The notes under the pieces were generated by a model. It did not search any database. It saw nothing but the letters and a program-made list of their open reading frames with translations, and was not told the DNA's origin. From positions 1-59,648 of the forward strand of contig JAUCGG010000005.1 in NCBI GenBank assembly GCA_030378015.1: 59,648 bases of DNA. The letters run 5' to 3'. The position numbers and the translations under genes are program-made. How positions within the stretch are numbered: position 1 is the stretch's first letter; each line of letters begins with the position of its first letter. Source of the DNA: Desulfococcaceae bacterium HSG8. GTDB taxonomy: Bacteria > Desulfobacterota > Desulfobacteria > Desulfobacterales > 4be13. Positions 34,513 through 57,726 of the stretch are shown in pieces.

Positions 34513-36837
34513 TCAAAAATCAACCACCACATTTTGGTTGGCCTGTATCGTTGCTGACAGGTTATTATCATTGAAAACAACGGTATAAATTCCCGGGAAC
34601 AGTTCAATGTCTTTTGTGCCGGAAGTGTGAAGCAGCTTATTCCCGTCCGAGTCATAAACATCATAATAACTCGTTCCCGTTCCTGATACAGTCAATGTTC
34701 CTGATGCTAATACCTTAAATGTTGCCCGAAATTTTAATCCTAATCCGGGAATCCTTGTCTGGAAAGCGTTTACTGATTCGCCGTCTTGTAAGAGCCGGTT
34801 TTAATTTGTTTTTATAACAATTCAGATTTATTATTTTTTTAATGATCTGATAACATTGCAAATTTCTGCAAATCGCAGATTGTCTGCATTTCCATATTTC
34901 CGAACAAAGGATCATCATATTTCAATATTTCTTCGGAATAAATATTAATATTTACAGCATATTAAATTCATTATGCAAAAAAAACCAATTAATATCGGCT
35001 GTTATATAAACGAGGATTCCCGAACCTTTGCCAGACAATGATTTACAGCTTAGAAACAAATTTTCGAGCAACTTTTAAGTAATACTGTATCTTCGCCGGC
35101 CTGAATCACTGCGGTCTGCTCGCCCTCATTCAGAGTTACGGTATAGGTGCCCGGGAATAATTCAATTTCCTTATTGGTTGAAGTATAGCCCAACTTATTC
35201 CATGCGGCGTCATATACATAAAACGTAGCATTTCCGGTTTTTGAAATGCTAGACACGCTCAGAGTTCCTGCCTTCAAAACTGTCTTTTCCCCGGTCTGAA
35301 CAGTTACATTTTGATAAACAGTACGCAATGATACCATATAATTACCGGGATATAGGTCAAATTCTTTATTAACAGAGGCATAGCCCAGTTTATCGCCGTC
35401 TGAATTATAGACATAAAAACTGGTATTAGCTGATGTGCTTGTTACGCTTATAATTCCTGCAACCAATTCTGTCTCTTCACCAGCCTGAACAGTGGCATTC
35501 TGTGCAGTATCATTTAAATAGACTGTATAATTGCCCGGAAATAATTCAGTTTCCCGATTAACAGCGGCGTAGCACAATTTATTTCCGCTCAGATCATAGA
35601 CATAATAAGTGGATGGGATAGTTGTAGCAGCGCTTAAAACACTGAGTCGGCCGGCGGTCAGCATTGTTTTTTCTCCGGCTCGAACGGTTGCGGTCTGTTT
35701 TGTATCATTTAAAAAAACATTATAATTACCGGGAAATACCTCAACTTCTCCGTTGGTATGAGCAGAATCCAGTTTTTTCCCCTCGGTGTCATAGACATAA
35801 AAATCATCGGTATCTGTTCCGGATACGCTGATGCTCCCTGCTGTCAGGACAGTTTTCTCACCGCTTTCAACGGTTGCGGACTGAGATGTTCTGTTTACAG
35901 AAACAGTATAGGTTCCTGAAAAAAGTTCAATCTCTTGATTCGTATCCGCATAATCCAGCCTGTTTCCTGCGCCGTCATAGACATAGAAATCATCTTTCCC
36001 GTTTCCGGATACGCTTACCACTCCCGCTGTCAGTACCGTCTTTTCTCCGGATTCAACTTCTGCCAGCTCTCTGGTATCGTTCATAGATATAATATAGCTT
36101 CCCGGAAGTATTTCTATATCCTGATTCGTCTTTGCATAAGCCAGATAATTGCCGCTCAGATCATCCTCGTAAATATAAAAAGTGTCCGCTCTTATGCCGG
36201 CAACACTCACGGCCCCGGCTGTTGCCACTGCTTTTTCGCCGGCTTCAACAGTGATGTGCTGCCTGGACTTATTTAAGGACAAGGTATAAGTGTCAGGAAA
36301 TAATTCGATTTCCTCATTGAGTTTTGCATAAGTCAGATAATCTCCGGTTCCTGTTTCGTCATACACATAAAATGTGTCATTTCCGATTCCGGCAATACTC
36401 ACAATTCCGGCTTCCAGAATCTCTTTCTTTCCTGCCTGAACAACTGCGTTCTGAACAGATTTGTTTAAGGATACGATATATTCGCCGGGCGGCAGAGGAA
36501 CAGCTTCATTGGTTTTGGCAGATTCCAGAACACCTCCGGTTCCTGTTGAATCATAAACCTTGTATATGCCCTTGCCTGTTCCGGATACGCTGACGGTGCC
36601 CATTTCTGCATCGGGATGAGATATGTCTTCCTGAATTCCGGCAATCACCTGCAAGGCGTGGATCGCTTCCCCCACGCCGATCTTACCGTCTTCTTTTACG
36701 TCCCATTTGCGCCTTTCTGCGGCCGCAGCTTCATCCAGTTGTTCCTGTGTAAAACACTGGGCATACACGATACCGCTGAATGCAAAGAGTATCGCAACAG
36801 CCGTAACCCAGCAAAGATTTAACTTTGTCTGCTTCAT
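34513..36837 (-). pseudogene. Secreted nine-repeat protein split by a 366-bp element
   Basis: The start is the ATG at 36837, followed by a signal peptide ending VYA-QC. A single dockerin-like segment (WDVKEDGKIGVGEAIHALQVI) follows, then eight repeats of 57-60 residues with the pattern G-x-(V/I)-S-V...YxVYD...L-x-Y-A-x-x-N-x-E-I-E-L-F-P-G-x-Y-x-V-x-L-N...A-x-V-x-A-G-E-x-x-x-L. The ninth repeat (34513-34707) lies past the inserted element and is in frame once the element and one TAATAC copy are removed (DTVL-ASGTL). At present translation stops after LKSCSKICF. The repeats look like an all-beta surface protein. Role unknown. Confidence 0.75.
34714..35079. mobile_element. 366-bp MITE-like element (family 6, copy 2)
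   Basis: Same element as 17533-17896 in the opposite orientation, with TAATAC on both sides (34708-34713 and 35080-35085). The ends are CTTAAATGTTGCCCGAAAT and CTTAAAAGTTGCTCGAAAA read inwards. No own ORF. Confidence 0.85.
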
Positions 36838-36900
36838 CTGATCTCCTTTATTTAATAGAAATAATGAGTTATAATTTTTTGGAATTAGCCCTGATATCAA

Positions 36901-36994: not shown

Positions 36995-37552
36995 TCAGCA
37001 TACTTCAACCATGGGATTTGGCAACCTCGGATCAATCAATGCTTTTTTACCTCTGAATTCAAAGGGCTTCAGAGAAAGAAACGCTTCATATTTTGTGCCG
37101 AGTATCTTTTTTCTGTAAGCTTCCTGAGTGATGCCCCGAAATTTTTTCTTTATGCGGCAGGCGTCAGAGACGAAATAAAGCCTGAATTTATTCAGGCAAT
37201 ACGTGGGATTTGAAAATATATGCCCGAATCTGTTTTTCAGAAAATCTTCAATGACCGTGGCAAACTTCTGTCTGATGTTCTCAATTTCAAATCCGCTCGG
37301 AGAACTGATATCTTTCATTTCAATGAGATAGAAATCATAGCAAGGAGTTGTTTCGCATTCAACAACAATCAGACAGTCCAAAGACGGGGGCGGGTTGTGC
37401 ATTCTTGACGAACTGTAGTATGCGTCAGTTTTCAGGATCAGAAACCTGTCTTCTGCCAGCAGTTCGTCAAATTCTATGCAGATATCGTTTTCAAAACATT
37501 CTCCTCTGCATAAAGCAAACAGTTCCGTATCCTGCAATATCTCGTCAAGCAT
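36995..37552 (-). CDS. PD-(D/E)xK-like nuclease, partner of the ATPase
   Basis: A 185-residue cytoplasmic protein with SLDCLIVVE (Asp59) followed by YDFYLIEMKD (Glu78-Met-Lys80). The spacing and the hydrophobic strands fit the D...E-x-K core of PD-(D/E)xK nucleases. The rest is not a family I recognise by name. Its ATG lies 3 nt after the stop of the ATPase gene, so the two are almost certainly co-translated and likely act together. An AAGGA is provided by the end of the ATPase gene. Nuclease activity is inferred from the motif only. Confidence 0.6.
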   Translation of the reverse strand: MLDEILQDTELFALCRGECFENDICIEFDELLAEDRFLILKTDAYYSSSRMHNPPPSLDCLIVVECETTPCYDFYLIEMKDISSPSGFEIENIRQKFATVIEDFLKNRFGHIFSNPTYCLNKFRLYFVSDACRIKKKFRGITQEAYRKKILGTKYEAFLSLKPFEFRGKKALIDPRLPNPMVEVC

Positions 37553-37555
37553 CGC

Positions 37556-38683
37556 TCATTCCTTTATCCCGCCGCTATTGAGTTTTTCTATCAGTTCAAG
37601 TTTTTCGCTGAAGAGCTTTTCTGTAACCTCAAGAAAATTTTCATCATCGGCCCCGAGTTCGTCTGTGGAAATATATGTTCCGACCCCGCCCTCATCCGTC
37701 TCTTTGAAAACAACCGTGCCAGTGGTGTCGGGATCAATCTTTTTGTCCAATATCAGATTATTCATTTTGTTGAACATATGGCTGCTGTGAGAGGTCAGCA
37801 CGATTCTGACATTTGCGGTGACCAGTTTGGCAAATATTTCCATCAGTCGGATTTGGGCTTCGGGATGCAGATGGGATTCGGGTTCTTCAATAAATATAAG
37901 GGATATCCCGTCCGCAAACGCTACAAGATATTTCAGGTAGGAGATCACCGGGGAAAGCTCGGAAACCATTGATGAGGTCAGAGACATGTCCAGACGCAGA
38001 CCGGTTTGCCGGGGCAGGAAAACCATTCGCTTTGTTTCTTCATCGAACAGAACCTCGCCTTTTAATATGTTTTTTTCCGTTTCTCTCACAATGCACAGGA
38101 TTTCATTGTCGGTGCCCGGCGCTCGCGTCCTGATGGCAGACAGTCCTAGGAAATAATCACTGACAGGCTCCGGGATGCTGGGTATATCAATCTTCTTTTT
38201 CAGAATCCCCCTGCTTCTTGAGAGTTCGGCAAAAATTTGGGAGAACGCGCTTAATGCCTGATAAAGCCCTGACCGCGAGGCAGGCAGGTAATGAATATGC
38301 CTGATATCCGGATGTGTTGTTGTTTTATTGGCTGGTACGGAATTCTTATGGAGCAAAAGATTTTTTCCGTGGGATTCTATGGCAATTTCAAAGGGATCTG
38401 TGCATAGGAAAAGTTTCATTCCCTTTTCGGAAAACCTGCTTCTCAGATTTCCGAGGTCTTCATACGTGGCATAAAAAGATTCCCGGAGGCTCTCCCCGAA
38501 TTCCGTGAGACTGGCATCAAGATTTTCATATCCGATTTTCAGAAGGTTCTTCAAAATCAGATATGCAGCAGAAGTCGCGTAGGATTTTCCGATGTTGTTC
38601 TTTCCGAAGATAAGCGTGAATTTTTTATTCAGATCAAGGTCTAATGATTTTATCGGACCGAAATTTTTTATCCTGATTTGCAT
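37556..38683 (-). CDS. AAA ATPase of the OLD/AAA_15-21 type
   Basis: A 375-residue soluble ATPase. Walker A is GKNNIGKS (27-34). The signature region is around residues 240-255, and Walker B is LIFIEEPESHLHPEAQ, the glutamate-rich form found in OLD-type and SMC-like ATPases of phage-defence operons; a later LTSHSSHMF gives the switch His. I start at the ATG at 38683 (GGAG 10 nt upstream) because the longer frame runs into a repeat. It pairs with the nuclease-like gene 3 nt downstream. ATPase-nuclease pairs of this layout include Gabija, PARIS and Septu, but neither partner clearly belongs to those. Confidence 0.75.
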   Translation of the reverse strand: MQIRIKNFGPIKSLDLDLNKKFTLIFGKNNIGKSYATSAAYLILKNLLKIGYENLDASLTEFGESLRESFYATYEDLGNLRSRFSEKGMKLFLCTDPFEIAIESHGKNLLLHKNSVPANKTTTHPDIRHIHYLPASRSGLYQALSAFSQIFAELSRSRGILKKKIDIPSIPEPVSDYFLGLSAIRTRAPGTDNEILCIVRETEKNILKGEVLFDEETKRMVFLPRQTGLRLDMSLTSSMVSELSPVISYLKYLVAFADGISLIFIEEPESHLHPEAQIRLMEIFAKLVTANVRIVLTSHSSHMFNKMNNLILDKKIDPDTTGTVVFKETDEGGVGTYISTDELGADDENFLEVTEKLFSEKLELIEKLNSGGIKE

Positions 38684-38702
38684 TGTCTGGTCTCCGGTCT
38701 TC

Positions 38703-38793
38703 AGCCCCGACATCAATGTCGGGACTGTGAAAGTGGAAGCAGGCTAAAGCCAGTTATTATACAGTGCGTTTTTAGCCGGGAGATTGATTTCAG
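38703..38793. repeat. Direct repeat flanking the ATPase-nuclease pair (copy 2)
   Basis: See 36901-36978. The copies are diverged; copy 1 has an extra 15 bp between the two conserved blocks. Confidence 0.5.
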
Positions 38794-38798
38794 CGTGC

Positions 38799-39878
38799 CT
38801 ATTTCTCGGCGGCCTTCGGGTATCTGCTGCAAATTTTTCCGAACCACGAAATGACATCTTTCAGGGCATATATAAGCGAGTTGACTGTATCAGAAGTTGG
38901 TTGATAGCCGGATGGCTTGTCTTTGCTGAGTTCTTCGTGCGGGGTTCCGAAATCACTGCCAATTTGGTAAACGCTGTAAAAGAAATTCTGTAGCAGGCTG
39001 TTTGTATCAAATTTATAGATTTTTTCTTTGGTTGCCTCATCATGAGTCAGCCACCAGAAAAAGTTTCTCGTTATAAGCTCATCTCCCCTCCGACATGATT
39101 CAGGGGCGTTAAAACGAATCCCTGCCTCTGCTGAAATGTTTGCTAAAATATTTCTCAGATTTCCTAAATTTCCAGCAATATCTGCCGGATTATCTGAATC
39201 CTTCCTGTATAGGACATGAAGAAATCTTTTGGCAGCTTTCTCACCGATATTTTTGTTCAGAATATTCAGACAATCCCTGTTTTCATGGATCAGGTTTATC
39301 ACCTCATTATTATCAACAATCCCTTTTAGCCTCTCAAAATCCTCCTCTTTCCCTTTTTCAATGAAATTTTTTTCCGTGAACTGATCCATCAGGATGAAAT
39401 TCTCAATATTCTCGGAATCACGGAGTTCGTCTTTTGCAGAATAGGCGGTCAGAAAAAAGAATTTCTTCTCCACATCTGCTTTGTGAACCAGTATCAGATA
39501 ATTCAGGAGATAGTCGCCTTCACGGTTGGATTTGCTGAACTTCTCATATTTCTCATCGGTGTAAGCGCTGTCAATCTTTCTCACCTCTTCATGTTCATAT
39601 CTGCCTTTGGTCAGATTCCGGTCAATGATGAACAGGGTGTATTTTTCGTGATCATGGACAACTTTGCGCAAGGCATCCGGAAAGCGGTATTCAACTTCTA
39701 TAAGATTTGTTTCCTCAACGATATCTTTGATTTCATCAGGAGTAGCCCCGTAACCGCTTTCATCTTCTTCTAATTCTTTCAACCGCCTGATTATTTCCTT
39801 TCCCATATATTTTTGAAATAATTTAGGAATGCGCGAAATATTTTTGGACAACTCATCTTCTACATACAAAATTTTCAT
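38799..39878 (-). CDS. Response regulator with unusual C-terminal domain (RR2)
   Basis: A 359-residue protein. N-terminal receiver: YVEDE (Glu7-Asp8), phospho-acceptor Asp86 in LFIIDRN, LTAYS and a later Lys in TEKNF. A 60-residue insertion separates the first strands. The C-terminal 180 residues are helical and end SVYQIGSDFGTPHEEL...TSDTVNSLIYALKDVISWFG, which closely parallels the end of RR1 (41519-42949). No DNA-binding helix-turn-helix is visible. The ATG overlaps the stop of the kinase gene by 4 bp (ATGA), so kinase and regulator are coupled. Confidence 0.7.
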   Translation of the reverse strand: MKILYVEDELSKNISRIPKLFQKYMGKEIIRRLKELEEDESGYGATPDEIKDIVEETNLIEVEYRFPDALRKVVHDHEKYTLFIIDRNLTKGRYEHEEVRKIDSAYTDEKYEKFSKSNREGDYLLNYLILVHKADVEKKFFFLTAYSAKDELRDSENIENFILMDQFTEKNFIEKGKEEDFERLKGIVDNNEVINLIHENRDCLNILNKNIGEKAAKRFLHVLYRKDSDNPADIAGNLGNLRNILANISAEAGIRFNAPESCRRGDELITRNFFWWLTHDEATKEKIYKFDTNSLLQNFFYSVYQIGSDFGTPHEELSKDKPSGYQPTSDTVNSLIYALKDVISWFGKICSRYPKAAEK

Positions 39879-41332
39879 TTATTTTGCTCCTTCCAAAAAT
39901 CGGCGAATCTTATTTCGACAGAATAGCTGCCTTCTTCTACTTTTATAATCGGCTTTGTATTCAACAGGCTGGCAAAATTATTAATAATCACATGGCCGAT
40001 ACCCTTTGTTACCACTTTTATTTCTATCTTGCCCAGTTCTGCAGGCATTACTGTAATAGTTCGCGTTTCACAGGAATTTTCTATTTTAATAAATATTTGG
40101 TCTCTATTTTCGGCAAAACGAATACCTAAAAAGCGTTCTTTTTTATCCACAAAAGCGCCATTTTTGAAAGCATTTAAAATGATTTCCTGAAACATAATAA
40201 GTAACTTAATTGCCGAACCTTTTTCATTTCCAATGACAAAATTTCCCGCATTGCCAAAAGTGATATCGGTTTCAAAAAAATATTTTTGCAAAAATGACTG
40301 AATGTCTGAATATCCAAGCTGAGAAACCTTTGTCCATTCTGCTTTGGCTTCGAGATATATTTCCTTTGTAGGGAAATATTCTATCATAGAATTATTAAAA
40401 TATTTGCCGTCAAACATGTTGCCAGCGGAATATTTCAGAGATTCAATGAGAATAGCCCGCAAATCTAAACTGTTCTTTCTGGTATTATATTTAGCGTCAT
40501 AATAAAAATCGTCAATAGTGCCTTTAAATGAAAGACTCATGGTGTTTACAACTTCCCGAATCAGATTTGCGCCCTTTAAAGCGTTTTCAATTACCCTGGG
40601 CTTGATATCATTCTCCAGTTTTAAATTCTCAAGGGGATCAATGATCGTACTGATTAAGTTTTTAATGTGATGGGAAAAATCTTGAATGACTTTGTTTCTT
40701 TCATCAAGTCTTATCTGAGCTTTATTTTCTTCTTTTTTCTCAATTAGTTCAATGTGTTTCTGTTGGAGATATTTATCAATGACAAAATATGAAAAAGCAA
40801 ATTCAGCTTGTTGATAAAATAGTTCTTCCGTTTTTTCTTTTTTTGAAATTTCCTTATTAAACTGACAGAAAATATCAGCCAATATGCTTAATTTTGATCG
40901 AATAAGAAATAATTTTTCGCCATCTCTTTCTAAAACTTCCGATAAGGAATCTTTAAAGTCAGGGTAATTCGAAAATATGCGAAAAATAAATTCTTTTATA
41001 TCTACCGGAATATTATCTTCGCTGAAACAAAGTTCATTCAGGAAAGCTGCCAGCTTCAAGTAATCTCTATTATCATTATAGAAATTCAATTTTTTCAGAC
41101 CAAGAAAGGCTTCTGTTTTTAATATGAAATTTACGACACAGTCTATTGCCATAATTTCCAAATAATCTTTAGCGTATTCAGGCTCAAGTTCAATGGCTTT
41201 GGTAAAATTTTTTACAGCGTTGTCATCATCCAGATTAAATGAGTAAAAAGCAGCGCGTTTTGAATACAGCCCCGCATTCCCAGGCTCAATATCACTTTTT
41301 ATCTGATCAATGAATTTTTTGTCTTGGCTCAT
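39875..41332 (-). CDS. Cytosolic TPR histidine kinase (HK2)
   Basis: A 485-residue protein without membrane segments. A short N-terminal TPR (residues 20-58, AVKNFTKAIELEPEYAKDYLE) is followed by a helical region, a coiled coil (about 190-215) and an H-box DFSHHIKNLISTI with His221/222. The ATP-binding part has an N-box-like EIILNAFKNGA and a G-box KGIGHVIIN. The layout is that of a soluble sensor kinase whose input is probably protein-protein contact. Translation is coupled to RR2 downstream. GGAAGGAAC precedes the ATG. A 186-bp gap with two inverted repeats separates it from RR1. Confidence 0.72.
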   Translation of the reverse strand: MSQDKKFIDQIKSDIEPGNAGLYSKRAAFYSFNLDDDNAVKNFTKAIELEPEYAKDYLEIMAIDCVVNFILKTEAFLGLKKLNFYNDNRDYLKLAAFLNELCFSEDNIPVDIKEFIFRIFSNYPDFKDSLSEVLERDGEKLFLIRSKLSILADIFCQFNKEISKKEKTEELFYQQAEFAFSYFVIDKYLQQKHIELIEKKEENKAQIRLDERNKVIQDFSHHIKNLISTIIDPLENLKLENDIKPRVIENALKGANLIREVVNTMSLSFKGTIDDFYYDAKYNTRKNSLDLRAILIESLKYSAGNMFDGKYFNNSMIEYFPTKEIYLEAKAEWTKVSQLGYSDIQSFLQKYFFETDITFGNAGNFVIGNEKGSAIKLLIMFQEIILNAFKNGAFVDKKERFLGIRFAENRDQIFIKIENSCETRTITVMPAELGKIEIKVVTKGIGHVIINNFASLLNTKPIIKVEEGSYSVEIRFADFWKEQNK

Positions 41333-41350
41333 TGTAGTTCCTTCCAGTTA

Positions 41351-41504
41351 GAAGGTGTTTGAAACATAGCAGTTAAACATCTTTTTTCCGTAGGGGCAAA
41401 ATTTTCAAACACCCTCTACTGCTTCGTCAATATTGACAATTACAATTATGAGTTGAGAATATCATATGCTCTGCTCTGAAATCAGATATCAACTCATAAA
41501 ATCG
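41351..41504. other. Two hairpins between RR1 and HK2
   Basis: GGTGTTTGAAA pairs with TTTTCAAACACC (41351-41413), and TTATGAGTTGA...TATC pairs with GATATCAACTCATAA (about 41450-41501). This is the only intercistronic gap of more than 120 bp inside the cluster, so it may hold an internal promoter, terminator or attenuator. Confidence 0.4.
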
Positions 41505-41518
41505 AACTTGACAAAGCA

Positions 41519-42949
41519 TTAAGAGCGTTCACAAAGTTCTCCAAATCTCAGAATAACGCACTTCATTGCATAAATCATGGAATACAGAACCTCCTGCTGT
41601 TTAATCGCAGCCCCGTGTGCTGCCTCGCTTCCAATTGCATGAATACTCAAAGCCAGATGGTAATGCACATCGTCAAAATACGTTTCTCTCTTCCGGATGG
41701 CTTGGGACAGCACTCGGTCAATGAGGAAGCGGTTCATTCTTTTATATTCGCTGTCGCTCACGTAGTAGAACTTTTTGTTCAGAATCCAGTTTATTTTTCT
41801 GTACTCGTCTTTCTTATCTTCTTCGGGGATTAAGTTTCGGGAAAAGAAATCTTTCCGATCAATGAGCGCATTAATATTTTTTAGGACAAAACCCTTTAAC
41901 TCTTTAATATCCTGATCATTGATCCAGTCTGAAACTCTTTTTTGCGAGCGGTAATGCAAAAAATCATAGATCCGTTTGGAAATAATATCAGACTGATTCT
42001 TCAGAACACCAAACAAAGCATCCCAGTCCCTGACATCTTCCTGCCTGATGTAAAACGAATCAGGATTATCATTCAGCCATCTCAGCGCCCCTCTTACGTT
42101 CATCTTGCCGTCTTTCAGGTGCTTGTTTCCCATACCGTGAAATGCTCTTACGTCATTGGCAAGTTTCTCTATCATTTTCTCCTGTATAATTCTGAGACTG
42201 TGGAGGTTTTCCCCAATCCGAGCTTCATCATCCTGAGTCTGGAACACTCTTGCAAAACGCTCCTTTTCTGTTTCGCCGAGATACTTCTCGAGGGTATCAA
42301 GATAGGGGTCTTTTTCGATAAAGGCTTTGACTCTGGCCAGCCCTTCGTCATTTTTGTTCCAGAAGTTAGGCTCCGCTTCTTTGACATAATTGCCGATTTG
42401 AGGATTCCATTTCAGGACATCATATTTTGCCAGGAGATCTCCGGGACGTTTCGAATGTGCTGAAAGAAAGCACACTTTTGTTTTTATGTCAGAAACATTC
42501 CAGATTCCTTTCTGTTTTTCATAATGCAGACATATCACGTAAAACAGAAGCAGTCCGCCATATTCCTGATTGCTCAGTATTTCACTGAATATCGTTTCAA
42601 TCTCAGACCGCTGTTCGTCGGACAGATGGAAGGCGTTTACAAACAAATTTTTGGCTTCCTCAACAGCTTGTTTTTCTTCGGTACTAATCCCCGGTTCTGT
42701 AGAAAATTTAACATCTAAGACGATGCTATCAAAATTTTCTTCAAATATCCGCTTGCAAGCCCCTGAAAATCCCTCTTCGATGAAGATGTTTTTCGTTTCC
42801 AAAAACGGTTTTATTTCAAACTCAAAATCATCTTCTCGTGTCTGCATATCAGAGAGATGTTTCAGATCCGAATCAGACAAATTTATTTGAAAAAGTTCCC
42901 AGTTGCGGGCCGAATCGGCGTTATCTTCAACCCATAATATTTTTTTCAT
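41519..42949 (-). CDS. Response regulator with unusual C-terminal domain (RR1)
   Basis: A 476-residue protein. Receiver residues: Glu8-Asp9 in ILWVEDN, phospho-acceptor Asp79 in IVLDVKF, and FLSAHS, with a long insertion after the acceptor strand. The C-terminal 250 residues are helical. The last 50, SIHAIGSEAAHGAAI...VLYSMIYAMKCVILRFGEL, match RR2's end and recall HEPN-type Abi C-terminal domains (Gly-x(3)-His-Gly then a hydrophobic helix); that relationship is inference. AGGAGG lies 6 nt before the ATG, and the gene starts 9 bp after the kinase HK1 stop. Confidence 0.7.
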   Translation of the reverse strand: MKKILWVEDNADSARNWELFQINLSDSDLKHLSDMQTREDDFEFEIKPFLETKNIFIEEGFSGACKRIFEENFDSIVLDVKFSTEPGISTEEKQAVEEAKNLFVNAFHLSDEQRSEIETIFSEILSNQEYGGLLLFYVICLHYEKQKGIWNVSDIKTKVCFLSAHSKRPGDLLAKYDVLKWNPQIGNYVKEAEPNFWNKNDEGLARVKAFIEKDPYLDTLEKYLGETEKERFARVFQTQDDEARIGENLHSLRIIQEKMIEKLANDVRAFHGMGNKHLKDGKMNVRGALRWLNDNPDSFYIRQEDVRDWDALFGVLKNQSDIISKRIYDFLHYRSQKRVSDWINDQDIKELKGFVLKNINALIDRKDFFSRNLIPEEDKKDEYRKINWILNKKFYYVSDSEYKRMNRFLIDRVLSQAIRKRETYFDDVHYHLALSIHAIGSEAAHGAAIKQQEVLYSMIYAMKCVILRFGELCERS

Positions 42950-42958
42950 ACTTCCTCC

Positions 42959-45943
42959 TTATTTAGCAGTTTCCTGACCCTCCGGTCTTTTGATAAACAG
43001 CCTTGCGGCAAATTCGAGGAGTTCCGAATCTTCCATATCTTTTTCGCTCTGCTCGAATTTGCCTACAACCTTTGAAAATTCCTGAATCATAGCCAGCCCT
43101 TTCAGTGTGCTTTCTTTGAGATTCAGTCTGGATTTCCGGCAGGCATTCGCCAAGGTAAGAACGATATAATCCCCCTCGGTTTCACTTTTTACGATGAACC
43201 TTCTGGCTGTCCGGTCCTCGATTGTGCCGTAGCGAATCATGTTTTTTGTCAGTTCCAAAAGAATGATAAACAGGACAGAAAAGGTATAGGAATTCTTTTT
43301 GACATAAAGGTTTCCGAGTTCTTCAATTTCAATGTCAAAAAAGCGGTGAATCGGCTCAAACTGGTCGCTCCGAAAAACATTTACAAATCCGGCTATCTGC
43401 TCTTCTGACAACTCGGAAATTGAGAAATGGGGAGATTTCCGCATCTCCTTGAGCACAGCCAGTTTCTCTCTGACATCCTTTTTATCGTATCTGTTAATAG
43501 AAAAAAATATATTTCTTATGGTTGCCCAGGCTTCTTCACCTTCGCCGACCACAAGATAATAGAGATTGATATTCAGGCAGAACCAGAGCAGGTCATGCAG
43601 GCTGATTCCGTCACTGATCTTCTCACAAAATAACTCATCCTGCGCCCGTGAAAGAACAATATCCTGGTTGCTGAAAGCCAGTTTGATAGCGTTCATGGTG
43701 GAGAGAACCAGATCATTCAGAAGCTCAAGACGGTTGACATCGTTCATGGAACTTGTGCCGCTCTTGATCCTTTTAGTGATGGCTTTGTTCGCAAGCATGA
43801 TGTTGCTTATGGTGTGGCTGACCGCCTGAAAGATTTTGGTCTTTAGTTCGCTTTTTTCCTGCTCCTTTTGTTTTTCCAGCAAAGATAATTCTCGTTCTTT
43901 CCCTTTGCCATCTAAGTAATTATATAGAAGGATGAAATTTATTCGTTGATTTTCAGATATGGGTTTATGGCCTTTTACTGCCCATTCGCAAATTTTATCT
44001 TCTCTTGGGGAAGCAGGAGATTTCTCCTCTACATCTTTTTCCTTTACAGTACTTAAAAAAGAAAAATCATAGGAAATCTTATCTTTTATTGGCATTGGAG
44101 ATTTTTTCTCTGCATCCTTAAATACTGGTAAAAGAAGTTTTAAAAGAGACAATTTCACAAAAAAGAAAAAAGAATCCTTTCCGTCTCTGTTTGATAAATA
44201 CTCTAAAGATTTTTCATGGTTTGGATAGCTAAAAAATATTTGGGAAAGCAAATCCTCGAATCTCTTATTATAAGAAGGAAAAAAGTAATTACCAGAATCG
44301 TCATAAACCATAAGTCCTCTCTTATGATATTTTATTTCTTTCCAATCTAGCTTATCCAAAAATCCGGATAGCCTGAACAATTCAAGATATATATGAATGC
44401 TGAACATACTGGAAATTGATACTAACATCCTTTTAATTGAAAAATTTTTCGCAATAAATATTAGAAAGTTGCTGTAGTCCAATTTATTAAAAAGTGATGA
44501 AAAATTAGCCAGTGAGAAATATACTGCACGAAAATCCATATTAAAATTACAAGGATTCATAAAAAAGTTACCATCGGCAACTTGATTAAAATCCTCATTT
44601 GCTTTTTCGCTTTTACCAATTTTATCATTGCAAATGCCACGAAGAAAATATATGGATTCAATACAGATGCCAAAAATAAAACCTTTATATAATTCAATAG
44701 ATATGCTAAAATCTGTAATCGCATCTTTGTAGTTATTCAGTTCCATATAATAAATGCCGCGACACAGATACATTTCAAACGATTTAGGATACAACTCAAC
44801 ACTGACATTATAGAGTATTTTTTTAGAAAGTTCAATAATCCTATATTTATTTCCATTAGTTATCACCTCATCCACCTGGGCTCGGCATAGACTTTCAATA
44901 TACGATAAACACTCATCAATGACATAGGGTTCTCCATCTCCATCTCTATCTCTATTCGATAAAGACTCTGTAGTGATATAGTGTCTTCCGCTTTTAATAA
45001 AAGATTTAATATCCTGTGATGCTTTTGTATAATCTTCTTTTTTAAGATGAATTTGGAAAAGAATCATATGAAAAGACACAGCTTCAGGATTAAGTTTCTT
45101 TACTTTAATATAATTCTTTTCAGCTTCATCATTAAGCCCTTTTAATTGATAAATATCATCAAGTCCAAGATAAAATTCGGGATTGGAAGGATCAAGCTTA
45201 ATTGCTTCGGTATAGTCCCGAATGGCATTATCAAATTGAGAATTCAAATCGTAAGAATAGGCCCGTTCTGAATATAATTGAGGGTTCTTGGGGTCAAGTC
45301 TGATGGCTTCAGTGTGACTTTTTTCTGCTTCCCTGGATTTTTTCTTTTCACAAAGATTTTTTGCATTCATACGGTAACAAATTGAAAGCAGGGGAATGAT
45401 AACGTCGTTATATAAGGAATCAAACTTGATAGCCTGATTAAAATCATTAATAGCTTTGCTATATATTTCAGTTCTGAAATATATAATTCCGCGATTTATA
45501 TACGCCTCTGCATTCTCAGGATCAAGTTTGATTGCTTGCCTGAAATCACATATTAATTCAATATGGTCTGCTATATCCATATAATCACCAAACATAGCCG
45601 GATATGATAAATAACTTACATAGCGAAGTGTTTTACTACATTCAGCATAATCTTTTATAGCTTCGTCATATTTTTCCATATTAAAAAAATAGTGGTCTGC
45701 GCGGTTCAGATAATGTTTTATTTTCGAGCACAGCATAGGTTCGGCGGATTTATTGAGAAGTTCAACGCACTTATTGAAATCATTCAGAGCGTTAACATCA
45801 TTACCTAACCTTTGATACATGAGCCCTCGCTGGTTAAAGTAAAATTCTTGGTTAACAGATTCTGCTATCCATTTGCTGGCTTTTTGTATCTTTCGTTCAA
45901 TTTCCATTCTCTCTGCTTTATCATATTCCGTCACTTCAATCAT
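42959..45943 (-). CDS. Large cytosolic TPR histidine kinase-like protein (HK1)
   Basis: A 994-residue soluble protein. The first ~450 residues contain many TPR repeats, for instance FDNAIRDYTEAIKLDPSNPE and YSKAINDFNQAIKFD. After a spacer come a coiled coil (about 690-705), an H-box-like IFQAVSHTISNIM with His710, a helical spacer, and an ATPase-like end with an N-box ELTKNMIRYG and KGLAMIQEFSKVVGK in place of the G-box. It is the larger paralogue of HK2 and pairs with RR1 9 bp downstream. AGGAAAAG precedes the ATG. TPR arrays usually bind partner proteins, so input may come from the neighbouring gene products. Confidence 0.7.
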   Translation of the reverse strand: MIEVTEYDKAERMEIERKIQKASKWIAESVNQEFYFNQRGLMYQRLGNDVNALNDFNKCVELLNKSAEPMLCSKIKHYLNRADHYFFNMEKYDEAIKDYAECSKTLRYVSYLSYPAMFGDYMDIADHIELICDFRQAIKLDPENAEAYINRGIIYFRTEIYSKAINDFNQAIKFDSLYNDVIIPLLSICYRMNAKNLCEKKKSREAEKSHTEAIRLDPKNPQLYSERAYSYDLNSQFDNAIRDYTEAIKLDPSNPEFYLGLDDIYQLKGLNDEAEKNYIKVKKLNPEAVSFHMILFQIHLKKEDYTKASQDIKSFIKSGRHYITTESLSNRDRDGDGEPYVIDECLSYIESLCRAQVDEVITNGNKYRIIELSKKILYNVSVELYPKSFEMYLCRGIYYMELNNYKDAITDFSISIELYKGFIFGICIESIYFLRGICNDKIGKSEKANEDFNQVADGNFFMNPCNFNMDFRAVYFSLANFSSLFNKLDYSNFLIFIAKNFSIKRMLVSISSMFSIHIYLELFRLSGFLDKLDWKEIKYHKRGLMVYDDSGNYFFPSYNKRFEDLLSQIFFSYPNHEKSLEYLSNRDGKDSFFFFVKLSLLKLLLPVFKDAEKKSPMPIKDKISYDFSFLSTVKEKDVEEKSPASPREDKICEWAVKGHKPISENQRINFILLYNYLDGKGKERELSLLEKQKEQEKSELKTKIFQAVSHTISNIMLANKAITKRIKSGTSSMNDVNRLELLNDLVLSTMNAIKLAFSNQDIVLSRAQDELFCEKISDGISLHDLLWFCLNINLYYLVVGEGEEAWATIRNIFFSINRYDKKDVREKLAVLKEMRKSPHFSISELSEEQIAGFVNVFRSDQFEPIHRFFDIEIEELGNLYVKKNSYTFSVLFIILLELTKNMIRYGTIEDRTARRFIVKSETEGDYIVLTLANACRKSRLNLKESTLKGLAMIQEFSKVVGKFEQSEKDMEDSELLEFAARLFIKRPEGQETAK

Positions 45944-45980: not shown

Positions 45981-47222
45981 TCATATTTTCGCATTAGGAT
46001 TTAATCCTTCCGCCAATTTCCGCATCCTATACCACTCATCTTCACCAAACGTATCACTTCTCACCACAACCGGAATACCGAATTTCCCCATCCGCTTTTC
46101 TCTGAATCCCCATTTTTTCCTCTCCGCATACAATTCAGTCCTTTTAAGCAGCATCAGCGGATATGCGGTAAGATTCCCACAGCCGTTGCTCTTTAGAAAA
46201 TCAACACTGCGCCTGAACGAATCAAAGGTCTGATTCGGCAGGCCGTAAATCAGGCTGACTTCATACGAAATATCCCTGTCATTCAGTTCTTTCATCAGTG
46301 ATTTTATCATCCTGACATTATTCGGTCTTCTTATGGCTTTGTATTCATCTTCCATAATCGTCTGAACGCCGAACTCCAAGCGGACGTTCAACTCCGCGCA
46401 CAAGTCCAGAAACGCTTTGCCGTTTTCCCCTTTTATGGCTTCGAATCTTGTTTGCAGAGCGACCTCCGAAGTCAGCCCGATCCGTCTGATTTCTTCCAGG
46501 ATATCCAAATAATCCTGCCCCGCATTGAATACCGGATCAAGAACATTGATCTTCCGGACTGATCTGCTTTTGAACAGGGAAAGTTCCTCATATACCCTGT
46601 CTTTGGGATACGCCTGAACCCTGTTGCCGTTCAGGTCCCTGTGAGCGCAAAAACTGCAACGATAAGGACAGCCCCGCTTTGTTTCAAATCTTACCATCTT
46701 CTGCCCGTGCGTGACGGGGATTTCTCCGGTCTTATAAACAGACGGAACAGCATTCAGATCGGTATTGTTCTTAAAAACCAGAGGCGTATTGATCGCTTCC
46801 GAATACAGGACAGCATCCAGTAACGCCTGTTCAGCATATCCGCTTATGAATATCTGACAATCCGGGTATTCTTCAGCAACATGATCCGAGTATGAAATCT
46901 GGGGCCCGCCCAGTATAATTCTGTTCCTGAACCCCGTCTCTCGAAGCTTTGCTGTCAGGGGATTTATCAGATGCTCAGACCAGACATAACAGGATATGGC
47001 AACAGCGTCAAATTTTTCAATGTTGAAAACAGATAAAAATGATTCGATCTCACTTATGCTGTTACCGAATTTAAAAACATTAAGCGGCAAATGGTGAACG
47101 AAAAAATCAGAACCGTATCTTTCATCATTTTTGAGAAATGCCAGAAGGGACGCTATTGACAATGACTTTTCCGGTTCCCCCGGCCTGATTAAATCGAATG
47201 AAATGATCAGAACATTTTTCAA
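45981..47222 (-). CDS. B12-binding-type radical SAM protein
   Basis: A 413-residue protein. Residues 1-140 have the layout of a cobalamin-binding (Rossmann) domain of the radical SAM/B12 class (ILGGPQISYSD, FISGYAEQALLDAV). The radical SAM motif is C185-x3-C189-x2-C192 in GCPYRCSFCAH. The remainder, with DPVFNAGQDYL and SLIYGLPNQT, is the radical SAM barrel. Such enzymes methylate or rearrange carbon centres of RNA, peptides or lipids; the substrate here is unknown. The start is TTG at 47222. It is the first gene after a sigma54 promoter and lies 37 bp from HK1, so it appears to head the cluster. Confidence 0.8.
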   Translation of the reverse strand: MKNVLIISFDLIRPGEPEKSLSIASLLAFLKNDERYGSDFFVHHLPLNVFKFGNSISEIESFLSVFNIEKFDAVAISCYVWSEHLINPLTAKLRETGFRNRIILGGPQISYSDHVAEEYPDCQIFISGYAEQALLDAVLYSEAINTPLVFKNNTDLNAVPSVYKTGEIPVTHGQKMVRFETKRGCPYRCSFCAHRDLNGNRVQAYPKDRVYEELSLFKSRSVRKINVLDPVFNAGQDYLDILEEIRRIGLTSEVALQTRFEAIKGENGKAFLDLCAELNVRLEFGVQTIMEDEYKAIRRPNNVRMIKSLMKELNDRDISYEVSLIYGLPNQTFDSFRRSVDFLKSNGCGNLTAYPLMLLKRTELYAERKKWGFREKRMGKFGIPVVVRSDTFGEDEWYRMRKLAEGLNPNAKI

Positions 47223-47272: not shown

Positions 47273-47288
47273 AGCAAGATCAATGCCA
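47273..47288 (-). promoter_or_regulatory. Sigma54 (-24/-12) promoter
   Basis: The minus strand reads TGGCATTGATCTTGCT: GG and GC are exactly 10 bp apart, and 14 of 16 positions fit TGGCACGNNNNTTGCW. The start codon of the radical SAM gene lies about 50 nt downstream of the -12 element. The sigma54 activator encoded at 48279-49751 is the obvious candidate regulator. Confidence 0.7.
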
Positions 47289-47365: not shown

Positions 47366-47379
47366 GTAAAAATTTTTAC
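47366..47379. promoter_or_regulatory. Perfect palindrome, possible activator-binding site
   Basis: GTAAAAATTTTTAC is a perfect 14-bp palindrome, 78 bp upstream of the -24 element, at the usual distance of an enhancer site for a sigma54 activator. It is AT-rich, so chance is possible. Confidence 0.35.
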
Positions 47380-47401
47380 TTTCAGGCATCAATATTTTTA
47401 C

Positions 47402-48218: not shown

Positions 48219-48298
48219 ACGGCATACAACAGATTATTCAATCCCCGCTGTTCGCCAGACAGAAAAAGCCCCTCCTTCTCAATGTTTGCGGACTATAA
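48215..48298 (+). pseudogene. Truncated RelE/ParE-type toxin fragment
   Basis: A 27-residue frame starting at the ATGA overlap with the antitoxin begins MNGIQQIIQSPLFARQKK, which resembles the start of RelE/ParE toxins, then runs into unrelated residues and a TAA inside the 3' end of the opposite-strand CARF-sigma54 gene. The toxin is therefore missing its catalytic body. Confidence 0.4.
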
Positions 48299-49751
48299 AA
48301 TCACTTTTCAGCTTCTTCAACCTCGCCCTGAAGGTATGAGGCTCCAACCCCAGCAGTCTTGCGGCCTGTCCTGCATTCCCACCCGTCTTTTCCAACGCAG
48401 CTTCATAATATTTCGGCAATATCTCGTTATTCAGATCCACCCCTTCATCCGGGATCACAACGCGGTTTGAAGCTGGCTCAATTTCAATGATATTCATGTT
48501 CTCCGCGAGAATTTTATTACCAGGAAATATATAAGCGATTTCAAGCGCGCTGTTCAATTGCCGGACATTTCCGGGCCAATGATATTTCAATATCAGGTCT
48601 GCCGCGGATTTGTCCAGGGATTTCTTTTTATCATTTTTTCTATTCAACCGCTCCACAATATGCTGTGCGATCAACACGCTGTCATTTCCCCTGTTCCGCA
48701 ATGGCGGGAGTGTGATTTCCGTGTGGACCAACCGGTAAAACAGGTCATCCCGGAACAATCCGTCCCTGACCATCTTGCGGAGGTCTCCGTTGGTGGCGGA
48801 GATGATTCTGACATCGGTTTTTTCCTCTTTTAAGCCGCCTACCCGCGTAAAGCTTCCGTTCTCCAGTACCCGCAACAGCTTCACCTGCATGGATTTTGGC
48901 AGATCGGCAATTTCGTCCAAGAAAACGGTTCCGCGGTCTGCCAGTCTGAAATAACCGGGCTTGTCCGAGATCGCGCCCGTAAACGCACCTTTTTTATGTC
49001 CGAAGAACTCGCTTTCAAAGAGTTCCTGCGGAATCGCACCGCAGTTTACCTGAACCAGCCGTTTCTTTTTTCTCGAACTGTTGTAGTGAATCGCCTCTGC
49101 CACAAGTTCTTTTCCCGTTCCGCTCTCACCCCGGATGAATATCGGGATATCTGTATCTGCAAAAAGCTGAATCTGTTCCCGGACTTTCAGAATATCAGGA
49201 CATTCGCCGATGATGTTATCATGCGTGAGCTTCAACTGCTTTTTCAGGTTCTTGTTTTCCCGGGCCAGCCTTGTCATCTCGACCTTTATCTCAGGAACTT
49301 GCTGAACTTTCGGGAAATCATCCAGTTCAAACGTGACTTCGGAAATCTCCGATTCCCTGGAAACCTGGATCAGCCTTGCATCAATGACGCGGCCCTGGCG
49401 GAGAAAAATCCAGCACGCATGCATGGCGGGTGTCCCCGAAGTTAAGGAAATCGTATATTCCGCATTCCCGTATGACTTCAGGACTTCTTTTACTGCCTTG
49501 TACATTGCCGGATAAACCGTATTGTAATCTGTCGGATTATCGGCCAAAGCTCCTTTGCGGATGACTTCCAGCCCGGGAAAATGTTTTTCGCAATAACGCA
49601 TGATTGCATCAGCAGGTTTTAAGTATCTGTCATGATTATAAAACAGACAGACCTTATCAAATTTTTCCTGAAGAAGAATTGAAAGAATTGCCCCGGGGTT
49701 TTCATTCGGATAGCAATCATTATCGCCGATGAAGGTGAGAAGGATTTTCAA
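48279..49751 (-). CDS. CARF-domain sigma54-dependent activator, RtcR-like
   Basis: A 490-residue transcription activator. Residues 1-145 form a CARF-type Rossmann domain, with the ligand-loop signature SLTSGTPAMHA near 102-112. Residues 178-415 are a sigma54-interacting AAA+ module: Walker A GESGTGKE (208-215), GAFTGA (255-260) for sigma54 contact, and Walker B VFLDEIADLP. The last 50 residues hold a Fis-type helix-turn-helix (GNAGQAARLLGLEPHTFRARL). RtcR is the named member of this class and controls RNA repair genes; rtcA/rtcB are absent here. CARF domains usually sense cyclic oligonucleotides or RNA-derived ligands. The start is TTG overlapping the preceding small ORF. Confidence 0.85.
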   Translation of the reverse strand: MKILLTFIGDNDCYPNENPGAILSILLQEKFDKVCLFYNHDRYLKPADAIMRYCEKHFPGLEVIRKGALADNPTDYNTVYPAMYKAVKEVLKSYGNAEYTISLTSGTPAMHACWIFLRQGRVIDARLIQVSRESEISEVTFELDDFPKVQQVPEIKVEMTRLARENKNLKKQLKLTHDNIIGECPDILKVREQIQLFADTDIPIFIRGESGTGKELVAEAIHYNSSRKKKRLVQVNCGAIPQELFESEFFGHKKGAFTGAISDKPGYFRLADRGTVFLDEIADLPKSMQVKLLRVLENGSFTRVGGLKEEKTDVRIISATNGDLRKMVRDGLFRDDLFYRLVHTEITLPPLRNRGNDSVLIAQHIVERLNRKNDKKKSLDKSAADLILKYHWPGNVRQLNSALEIAYIFPGNKILAENMNIIEIEPASNRVVIPDEGVDLNNEILPKYYEAALEKTGGNAGQAARLLGLEPHTFRARLKKLKSDFIVRKH

Positions 49752-54821: not shown

Positions 54822-56708
54822 TCATCCGCCCTGGATATTCAGAACATATCCGATCTTTCTCAGCCCTTTCCGGAACTGTTTTTCCTTGTCTTTGGGAACC
54901 ACAATATAATTTTTTCCGGCCAGGAAACAGAGCTTTTTCAAGCCGCTGTCATTGGCGATCAGTTGGGCGATACTGCTGTCAGCGCATTTGATCAGGCGGG
55001 CGTCGCCCATATCCTGCACCATACGGATACGCCGGGCAGTATCATCAAGAAAGGCTTCTACCGGCTGGGGCAGCGCTCCTTTGTTCCGCTCATTCAGAAA
55101 AGTGATGATACCGCTGATATCCACTCCTTCCTCCACAGCCTGAAGGAGCTTCGGAAGCGAGAGATGCCAGACCCTTTCGGATTTTCGCATACAGAACCGA
55201 TCTAAGAAAAGTTCATCCGAGGATGAGCCGGACGCCAGGGAGGTGATGTCCATATTGGGAAGGACCCGCAATGATGCCTCATCATGAAATGTCGGTGTGT
55301 ATTCATCCTTCTGACCGAGAATCCATGCGCCCAGGGAATTGAGACGCAGGGCATACAATCCGTCATATCGGCTCAGGCAGGAATAATCATCCGCGCCCCA
55401 GAGATCCAGATGGTCGCTGACAGCTCCCCAGGGCGGAATCAGGGCAACATCAATGAGACCAAGGGTTGCCGCATATTCCAGGAGAAAGGCACGGCCAAAC
55501 CGGGCATCCACATGATCCCATTTCACATGGTTGTATCCGAGACTGCCGTAATTGGGATCGCCGATATATAAATGCCAGTATTCCCGCACCACATCAAAGC
55601 GATGGCCTTTGGCTATCAGGAAGTCGAAGAAATCCCCTGTTTTCATCCAGACCCCTTCTTCCGTTTCATACAGGGCATCGGCAATATTCTCCCGACTGGG
55701 TGCGGCAACGTATAAAGGGCGTTTCCGGGATTTCTGCCCCTTGAATATATCTATCCGGCTCATCTCATGAAAATTTTTGTTTTTCAGCCATCGTTCCCAC
55801 AGGGTTTTAAGAACTTCCAGAGCGGGCTTTTTCATGGCTGCCCGCCCGGTGCGGCCGAGTTCCAGTTTTGTACCGTTTATTTTGACCAGATTTGCGGCCT
55901 GCAGGAGCATTGTCCAGGCAAAAGGGCGTATGCCGGCATCGCCCATCCGGATATCATATTCACTTTTTGCTTCTGCATCATCCGGGTAAAAATCCCCGCC
56001 GGAAAGAGCGTTTCGGATGTTTTTGCAGGCAGTTTTCGTGGGACGTCCGGTTTTTGCACTTACACTGATTTTTCCCATATCCGCGAGCTGCAAAATTATC
56101 ATCAGATCATTTATGGCCGCCTGTTCGGTGGAATGTTGCACCAGCGTCGCTTCCCCGTATTTTTTCCACCCGGTAAGTATTGTGACGGTTTCGGGCAATT
56201 CCTCCACGGACAGAACCTCGACTTCCCCGGGTTCGGGCACAAATGACTTTATCCTATTCAGCATGTCCAGCGGCATACCATGTGATACCATGAACAATGC
56301 CAGGGGAGGAAATATAAAAGGCTCCTTGTTTCTTCCCCACCCGTAATCATAGGTTGACCAGGTGAGCCGAGGGAACTCTCCGTATTTTGCCCGGAACCGG
56401 TCCCGATGAATGGTCCCGTCCCCGTGAACCACCTCCTGAATAGCGGCCTGTTCCAGGTCGGTCATCTTTTTTTCATAGATAAATTTCAGGAAAGACTTGT
56501 CCCTGAGACAGGTAAGGATCCATTGCACCCGGTCTGCTTTTTTGGATGGCAGCCCCCCGGCTTTGGACGGAATATCCAGTCCGGCAGGTTTGATCCGGCT
56601 CTCTTTCAGCGCATTTAAAAGGTATGCGCCGATCCTTTTTAAATCATCCACAACATATGCGCTCATCATCAGGTTTAATGATTTTGCCTGTTTATCTGAA
56701 TGTCTCAT
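54822..56708 (-). CDS. Helicase-associated protein, partner of XPB-type helicase
   Basis: A 628-residue cytoplasmic protein. It resembles the helicase-associated proteins encoded with bacterial XPB-type helicases: a conserved helical N-terminal half with winged-helix-like segments (around 225-290, the LELGRTGRAAMKKPALEVL segment) and a C-terminal segment (about 445-620, LRVLPNMDITSLASG...FCMRKSERVWHLSLPKLLQAV) similar to the XPB/Ssl2 N-terminal domain family. It has no ATPase motifs of its own. The helicase gene is on the same strand 1.0 kb upstream, with several mobile elements now between them. Role in DNA repair is inferred from that pairing. Confidence 0.7.
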   Translation of the reverse strand: MRHSDKQAKSLNLMMSAYVVDDLKRIGAYLLNALKESRIKPAGLDIPSKAGGLPSKKADRVQWILTCLRDKSFLKFIYEKKMTDLEQAAIQEVVHGDGTIHRDRFRAKYGEFPRLTWSTYDYGWGRNKEPFIFPPLALFMVSHGMPLDMLNRIKSFVPEPGEVEVLSVEELPETVTILTGWKKYGEATLVQHSTEQAAINDLMIILQLADMGKISVSAKTGRPTKTACKNIRNALSGGDFYPDDAEAKSEYDIRMGDAGIRPFAWTMLLQAANLVKINGTKLELGRTGRAAMKKPALEVLKTLWERWLKNKNFHEMSRIDIFKGQKSRKRPLYVAAPSRENIADALYETEEGVWMKTGDFFDFLIAKGHRFDVVREYWHLYIGDPNYGSLGYNHVKWDHVDARFGRAFLLEYAATLGLIDVALIPPWGAVSDHLDLWGADDYSCLSRYDGLYALRLNSLGAWILGQKDEYTPTFHDEASLRVLPNMDITSLASGSSSDELFLDRFCMRKSERVWHLSLPKLLQAVEEGVDISGIITFLNERNKGALPQPVEAFLDDTARRIRMVQDMGDARLIKCADSSIAQLIANDSGLKKLCFLAGKNYIVVPKDKEKQFRKGLRKIGYVLNIQGG

Positions 56709-56856
56709 TTTATCTCCTTAAATTAAATCTTGCTCTCCAAATAAATAACGGCATCCTTCACTTGTCAGTTTACTGTAGAACGATTTTTCAAATCGTTCCG
56801 AACGATTTGAAAAGTTCTGTAGTCAGAAAAAGTGTGTAAAGATGCTTAAATAATAT

Positions 56857-56962
56857 CAGTAGTACATCAACTTGTAAATTCTCCCCCCTTTAAAAAGGGG
56901 GCGAACTTAAAAAGTGGTGTAGTAGATCGAAAAACTTTCTGTCTGACAGTGGATTCCGGTTT
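56857..56962. mobile_element. MITE family 5 fragment split by a minimal family 2 element
   Basis: CAGTAG...GTAGATCGAAAAACTTTC, the family 5 end, is interrupted by a 59-bp family 2 element (56863-56921; TACATCAACTTGTAAATTC...GAACTTAAAAAGTGGTGTA) with GTAG on both sides. The family 5 part is then cut by the element starting at 56958. Confidence 0.65.
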
Positions 56963-57513
56963 TTATATGAAAGCCCGTAGCAATGCCAAACTATAAGTTT
57001 GCACGGGCGCATTTACAACTTGGGGGAGCAGTCCCGTAGGGACGACTGAAAATAGCCCGGCAATTTATTGCCGGGGCGGATGTCCCCGTTTTTCAGTCCC
57101 GCAGGGACGACTGAAAAGCTTTCAGTCGTCCCTGCGGAACCTGATAATCCGGGGGACCTCACCCGGCAATGAATTGCCGGGCTGTTTTCAGAAGTCCCTC
57201 CGGGACTGAAAGTTACTCCCCCAACTATAAATACGGGCGCATTTACAACTTGGGGGAGTCCCGGAGGGACGACTGAAAACAGCCCGGCAATTTATTGCCG
57301 GGGCGGATGTCCCCGTTTTTCAGTCCCGGAGGGACGACTGAAAAGCTTTCAGTCGTCCTACGGGACCTGATAATCCGGGGGACCTCACCCGGCAATGAAT
57401 TGCCGGGCTGTTTTCAGAAGTCCCTCCGGGACTGAAAGTTACTCCCCCAACTTATAAATACGCCCGTTTGGCACTCTGTTGTCCGCTGGCTTTCATATAA
57501 ACCTTCATGATCT
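56958..57513. mobile_element. Element with GGTTTATATGAAAGCC ends holding two family 4 copies
   Basis: TTTATATGAAAGCC (left) and GGCTTTCATATAAA (right) are inverted ends, with GCCAAAC / GTTTGGC just inside. Between them are two family 4 MITEs in tandem at 57005-57234 and 57235-57465, each GGGCGCATTTACAACTTGG...CCCCCAACT-ATAAATAC with GTCCCG..CGGGAC stems. The pair is nearly identical. Confidence 0.6.
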
Positions 57514-57578
57514 GACGGTCACAACGAAACATGAAAGTCGGAGCAGATGGCCACCCACCCTGCATTTTCGGGTGTTTT

Positions 57579-57701
57579 AGGTGATTTCCAGAAAAGAATA
57601 TACCAAGTACAGTTTGTAGTTCCGCGTTCAGGCGGTGTCATGCCGCCTGAACGCGGAACTGCAAACTTCAATCCGGTATGTTTTTTATTGGAAATCGCCT
57701 T
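57579..57701. mobile_element. MITE family 1 (copy 3)
   Basis: GGTGATTTCCAGAAAAGAAT ... TTTATTGGAAATCGCC, with a GTAGTTCCGCGTTCAGGCGG stem; TTA on both sides. It lies directly downstream of the XPB helicase stop. Confidence 0.7.
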
Positions 57702-57726
57702 ATTTTTGAGGAAATCCCTTATGAAT

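Follow-up and report, generated by a model that had tools for sequence, protein, structure and literature searches.

What is the output of two response regulators that share a C-terminal domain belonging to no recognized family? The question is raised by a stretch of 59,648 nucleotides from Desulfococcaceae bacterium HSG8 (contig JAUCGG010000005.1; host genome, 6.0 Mb). We refer to the whole stretch as the window, and all coordinates are positions in this 59.6 kb. A reading of the letters alone (the original prediction) had noted that the two regulators, RR1 and RR2, end in the same novel helical domain with no visible DNA-binding motif, and had likened this domain to the HEPN/Abi C-terminal RNases, which would make it an effector directly controlled by phosphorylation; structure prediction, a fold search, and a profile search for other receiver-linked copies were suggested as checks. 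We conclude, with a probability of roughly 0.5, that the regulators are phospho-switched adaptors, neither RNases nor transcription factors, in a stress- or defense-type operon that carries two kinase/receiver pairs and is inducible by a CARF-sigma54 activator.

Both regulator genes lie on the minus strand where they had been placed, and the span originally given also includes the gene for a histidine kinase (HK), HK2. The regulators, the parts of their shared domain, and the kinases are as follows.

38799-39878, minus strand: RR1, a receiver (phospho-acceptor D86) followed by a C-terminal bundle, probably HEPN-like (about 39311-38799)
38799-39311, minus strand: shared C-terminal domain of RR1, residues ~190 to 359 (AlphaFold2 confidence, 91), whose profile is common to RR2
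39875-41332, minus strand: HK2, TPR-histidine kinase and partner of RR1, between RR1 and RR2
41519-42949, minus strand: RR2, a receiver (D79) followed by the same C-terminal domain with an insertion of ~120 amino acids
42065-42316, minus strand: first piece of the shared domain in RR2, residues 212 to 295 (profile match)
41519-41689, minus strand: second piece of the shared domain in RR2, with SIHAIGSEAAHG...SMIYAMKCVILRFG, residues ~421 to 475 (profile match)
42959-45943, minus strand: HK1, TPR-histidine kinase-like partner of RR2, directly upstream of RR2

The C-terminal pattern, read as SVYQIGSDFGTPH...SLIYALKDVISWFGKIC in RR1 and as SIHAIGSEAAHG...SMIYAMKCVILRFGELC in RR2, had been quoted correctly, and the resemblance extends to whole profiles. 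A C-terminal profile made from RR1 relatives, with one hybrid member (L019) excluded, matched RR2 minus its first 200 residues at an E value of 4.5e-14, whereas none of 4000 shuffled versions did better than 0.023. As the match falls in two pieces (residues ~212 to 295 and ~421 to 475), the RR2 domain carries an insertion of approximately 120 residues. The excluded hybrid, which is the same gene as L007 in another genome, joins an RR2-like receiver to an RR1-like C terminus, and the C-terminal domain is therefore modular. Pfam and NCBIfam scans of RR1 and RR2 returned no family for the domain, DNA-binding families included, in agreement with the predicted novelty, and no PDB sequence was matched either by single proteins or by the family profile.

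The regulator family is rare, with a long match in 13 of the 389 sampled genomes of the class, plus fragments in genome G063 and marginal matches. Those relatives that carry names belong to the Desulfobacterales, Desulfonema magnum among them. Other receiver-linked copies were recovered farther away: two distant members from other families of the phylum (G540 and G740) consist of a receiver and the C-terminal domain, with a histidine kinase adjacent. No relatives were found of RR1 in phage records, of the RR1 family in viral contigs, or of RR2 and the neighboring small protein P0006 in plasmids. A degenerate remnant of the domain occurs elsewhere in the same genome (L060:6445-6591; G000:C147), with a TAA inside the matched stretch, and similar fragments of the domain occur in G063 and G078.

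The receivers of RR1 and RR2 are genuine, although the Pfam scan of the two proteins did not detect them. Every member with a complete receiver retains the acidic pair, the phosphorylatable Asp (D86 in RR1 and D79 in RR2), and the Lys; the Thr/Ser is likewise retained, as read in all of these but G540 and G740, the most distant ones. Each regulator gene comes after a gene for a TPR-histidine kinase (HK1-RR2 and HK2-RR1), and the HK2 and RR1 genes overlap by 4 nucleotides. HK2 has an SHHIKN H-box and weak matches to HisKA and the GHKL ATPase, and HK1 has an SHTISN H-box and an ATPase part that was recognized by eye, without a Pfam HATPase match. The pairing is conserved from standalone HK2-RR1 pairs in other genomes to the double-pair cluster, and a kinase adjoins the regulator in most loci; some regulator copies (e.g., L040) have no adjacent kinase. 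In D. magnum (L053:3730-4756), RR1 is split across two overlapping open reading frames (ORFs), while the kinases, RR2, the ATPase, and P0006 appear intact, and in G003 (L052:6286-7871) two tandem truncated HK2-like ORFs lie beside the cluster.

What fold does the shared domain adopt? An AlphaFold2 model of RR1 (16 relatives) has a mean predicted local distance difference test (pLDDT) score of 91.1 and a predicted template modeling score of 0.84. It consists of the receiver and then a helical bundle, as had been predicted, with helices at residues 192-199, 201-210, 213-224, 231-255, 270-278, 294-310, and 329-352; pLDDT values below 50 occur only within residues 314 to 320, starting at the motif His 314. 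With this model, Foldseek returned receivers and three HEPN proteins at E values of >1 (AF0298 [2hsb], TMt of 0.64; ST0689 [1wol], 0.55; and sacsin [3o10], 0.54/0.49), the top match being a de novo designed protein, and a fold search of viral structures returned no match. DUF4145, a HEPN family, was touched by one family member (E = 0.018, under the cutoff). An hhalign comparison with DUF4145 scored above 60 shuffles, yet with a probability of 2.4%, and a reversed control against Hpt scored higher. Because the Foldseek, DUF4145, and hhalign scores are all below significance, a HEPN-like bundle stays a fold guess, plausible and the best that we can offer. The domain shares with the HEPN superfamily (DUF4145 and HEPN-T) an all-helical bundle, and its motif, S(D/E)xG..H ahead of the last long helix, resembles the (R)xxGNxxxH of DUF4145. 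Abi_C, also named in the original prediction, gave no match, and its profile comparison was at shuffle level.

Whether such a bundle could cut RNA is a separate matter. The HEPN active site is Rx4-6H (PMC3710099), and none of the 24 sequences has an R 4 to 6 residues ahead of the motif His. The His itself, present in all RR2 sequences, is missing in two otherwise well-conserved members of the RR1 family (L033 and L040). Among the RR1 relatives, just about one in two has K/R opposite the DUF4145 Arg. In these features the domain differs from the HEPN superfamily; it was therefore not filed as a HEPN RNase, and the idea of the original prediction, a HEPN/Abi_C RNase under direct phospho-control, was rejected as the leading explanation.

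The two pairs belong to a larger cluster, in which the gene order on the minus strand is RtcR-like activator, radical SAM, HK1, RR2, HK2, RR1, AAA_15 ATPase, and P0006, with intergenic gaps of no more than 186 bp from the radical SAM gene onward. Its remaining features are as follows.

48279-49751, minus strand: P0007, RtcR-like CARF-sigma54 activator with a Fis-type helix-turn-helix (HTH) (profile matches)
47366-47401, minus strand: tandem palindrome resembling an enhancer, GTAAAAATATTGATG..GTAAAAATTTTTAC, with the -24 element 78 bp downstream
47273-47288, minus strand: sigma54 -24/-12 promoter, TGGCATTGATCTTGCT, the only perfect TGGCA-N6-TTGCW match in the window
45981-47222, minus strand: radical SAM protein, the lead gene after the sigma54 promoter, with a weak B12-binding match
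37556-38716, minus strand: AAA_15/AAA_21 ATPase (library scans)
36995-37552, minus strand: P0006, small protein adjoining the ATPase, with a PD-(D/E)xK-like pattern and without a family match

The activator P0007 has matches above the cutoffs to RtcR (6.8e-9), Sigma54_activat (7e-67), and HTH_8 (1.8e-8), and one to Cas_Csm6_CARF slightly under its cutoff (1.1e-5); it is the sole RtcR match in the genome. Close homologues (61 to 77% identity) occur in 8 other sampled genomes, giving 9/389 in total, and the regulator family is present in all 9 (hypergeometric probability, 1.4e-15, with phylogeny ignored). The activator is on the same contig as the module, adjacent or within ~11 kb, in G002, G003, G048, G078, and G118; no contig of G001 or G025 connects the activator to a regulator, and in G004 the activator is followed by a TPR-kinase gene that is truncated where the stretch read ends. 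Neither rtcA nor rtcB is among the neighboring ORFs scanned, so that P0007 lacks the position next to rtcBA that marks RtcR proper.

The evidence for the promoter is one of position, because the 10 one-mismatch matches to TGGCA-N6-TTGCW in the window are at chance level. The promoter lies ~50 bp ahead of the start of the radical SAM gene, and in 7 of the 9 loci scored, the best sigma54 site is the one immediately ahead of the lead gene; in G118 and G003 the site precedes additional small genes. A tandem palindrome of the form GTAAA-N4-TTTAC stands 76 to 90 bp upstream of the promoter in seven loci with differing lead genes, so that the promoter/palindrome pair is found ahead of the module in the window and in six other Desulfobacterales. 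A genome-wide search found the tandem palindrome nowhere else in the 6.0 Mb. In G004 the promoter is the same and the palindrome more degenerate. A further perfect GTAAA-N4-TTTAC palindrome occurs in HK2 near its start (41202-41215, plus strand), where 0.07 matches are expected per window.

The genes carried beside the module vary. A radical SAM gene comes first in four genomes (that of the window, G001, G002, and G035), and in the window, G002, and G035 the module comes with the full set of radical SAM, AAA ATPase, and P0006. G003, G004, and G118 instead encode three small proteins between the promoter and HK2 (L120:3100-4100, minus strand; L125:4800-5923, plus strand; and L059:3696-4606, plus strand), which are ~75 to 154 amino acids long, some with hydrophobic N termini, and have no clear Pfam family; possibly, these are alternative effectors. 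G078, G048, and G234 have neither gene set, and G048 has an ARPP-1 gene downstream. The ATPase resembles AAA proteins of defense systems in PADLOC (e.g., PD-T4-4, AriA, and GajA), the resemblance being broad. P0006, which found no family in the library scans, adjoins an AAA_15 ATPase in all three genomes where it was found; its pattern D59...E77-M-K79, conserved in three close homologues only, suggests that it may be a PD-(D/E)xK nuclease. Directly downstream of P0006 is a 616-amino-acid protein of repeated ~65-residue units (35050-36900, minus strand), and comparable repeat proteins follow P0006 in G002 and RR1 in G004. Upstream of the cluster (54822-59400, minus strand) are an XPB/ERCC3-type helicase and a second Helicase_C_3 protein.

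These observations can be arranged into a sequence of events. RNA damage or infection is proposed as the trigger. P0007 would sense an RNA-derived signal, probably RNA ends with a 2',3'-cyclic phosphate, given that the CARF domain of RtcR binds tRNA fragments with such ends (PMC7790460); it would then assemble on the tandem palindrome and fire the sigma54 promoter, so that the whole cluster is expressed. The newly made TPR kinases would phosphorylate the receivers of RR1 and RR2; the domains for this step and the active-site residues of the receivers are in place. The C-terminal domain is probably a degenerate helical bundle, HEPN-like but lacking the Arg and His of the catalytic pair. Upon phosphorylation it may change its oligomeric state or dock onto a partner, and the phosphorylated regulators would thereby switch the variable neighbor genes, here the AAA ATPase and the possible PD-(D/E)xK nuclease. 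We also considered a self-amplifying version of this circuit, in which the phosphorylated bundles, or a nuclease that they switch on, cut RNA and leave 2',3'-cyclic phosphate. Because the cut ends would be the ligand of the neighboring activator, the two-component system and the RNA-damage sensor would drive each other in an immune circuit with positive feedback, whose effectors are interchangeable; we regard this as a long shot.

Other outputs have to be weighed against an adaptor role. Acting as PhyR does, the regulators could sequester or release a regulatory protein and so tune a general response to RNA damage or stress with no part in defense. PhyR structures are among the Foldseek matches of RR1 (probability, 0.44 to 0.72), the regulators carry no DNA-binding or catalytic signature, and RR2 is conserved at 61 to 82% identity within one family, unlike a fast-turnover defense gene. 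However, the TMt values of the PhyR matches are only ~0.3 and may reflect the receiver, no NepR-like partner was seen, and the neighbor genes are swapped between loci, a defense-like AAA ATPase among them; we consider such partner switching a serious alternative, though a rather doubtful one. An active HEPN-type RNase gated by receiver phosphorylation would need a noncanonical site to which the conserved His and further polar residues contribute. HEPN-like folds are among the fold matches, most members have the His, even the distant G540 and G740, there are HEPN families with H and without R, possibly with substitute basic residues (PMC3710099), and CARF/RtcR-like control is found beside HEPN RNases in CoCoNuTs (PMC11090510). 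The lack of Rx4-6H in every member, the loss of the His in L033 and L040, and its location in a loop that the RR1 model predicts with low confidence nevertheless make this idea distinctly unlikely.

The chances are slim that the cluster is a defense system like Detocs in which the regulator itself is a toxic effector of non-HEPN chemistry. A TPR-kinase with a receiver-fused C-terminal domain fits the layout of Detocs, and DefensePredictor predicts a system with TPR, HATPase, and REC domains (PMC13092281). Against this, the C-terminal domain has no conserved set of catalytic-looking residues, a PADLOC scan of both regulators and the kinases gave no match (PADLOC coverage of Detocs was not confirmed), and the cluster has two kinase/regulator pairs and separate candidate effector genes. 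Most response regulators are transcription factors, and the second copy of the palindrome core inside HK2 (41202-41215) might be read as a target of RR1 or RR2 acting through an unrecognized DNA-binding output. This seems very improbable for proteins in which the Pfam and NCBIfam scans show no family of the HTH, winged-helix, or LytTR kind, whose model shows a helical bundle, and whose operon already has its own sigma54 activator.

We thus favor phospho-switched adaptors, while recognizing several points that count against them. The model of RR2 is poor (mean pLDDT, 65), its C terminus could not be modeled, and nothing past the receiver is interpretable. The HEPN assignment is weak throughout (Foldseek, E > 1; DUF4145, E = 0.018; hhalign, 2.4%), and several loci lack the AAA/P0006 pair. 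The G035 cluster has the promoter and the palindrome, but the search for a close RtcR homologue in its fragmented assembly was negative; in G234 the activator is divergent and the promoter has no palindrome. Finally, we infer, rather than observe, an effect of regulator phosphorylation on the ATPase and P0006, binding of the palindrome by the activator, and a function in defense.

If correct, the arrangement joins two signaling logics that are usually kept apart, namely, the sensing of signals derived from RNA by CARF, through sigma54 transcription, and phosphotransfer from histidine kinase to receiver. The unique palindrome, the promoter, and the single-copy activator open the regulatory half to simple reporter testing, and further modules could be found by screening the genes that follow RtcR-like activators for TPR kinases and receivers. 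Within the literature collection searched, no paper was found that unites CARF-sigma54 control with TPR-kinase/receiver modules.

The kinds of components are already known, both as RtcR-like activators and as TPR-kinase/receiver systems such as Detocs; what appears to be new is the receiver output domain, for which the libraries searched contain no family. Detocs includes a TPR-bearing histidine kinase and a receiver-fused C-terminal domain, a layout that the present cluster shares. In contrast to Detocs (summarized in PMC11249213), the regulators here have no PNP or other effector family recognized in Pfam or NCBIfam, there is no receiver-only third gene, the candidate effectors are separate neighbor genes, and the operon is probably under CARF-sigma54 control. 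With regulators of the PorX/PhyR class, RR1 and RR2 share the joining of a receiver to a non-DNA-binding output, whereas TM-scores to both are low and neither a PglZ nor a sigma-like family was found in them. RtcR operons and those of RtcR-like regulators resemble the cluster in its regulatory half, in which an activator with CARF, sigma54 AAA+, and Fis-HTH parts adjoins the operon and the sigma54 promoter has palindromes upstream. RtcR-like proteins have been linked to restriction systems (PMC4012209) and to CoCoNuT superoperons (PMC11090510); here, the activator accompanies not RtcAB, restriction-modification, or McrBC but TPR-kinase/receiver pairs with an apparently new output domain.

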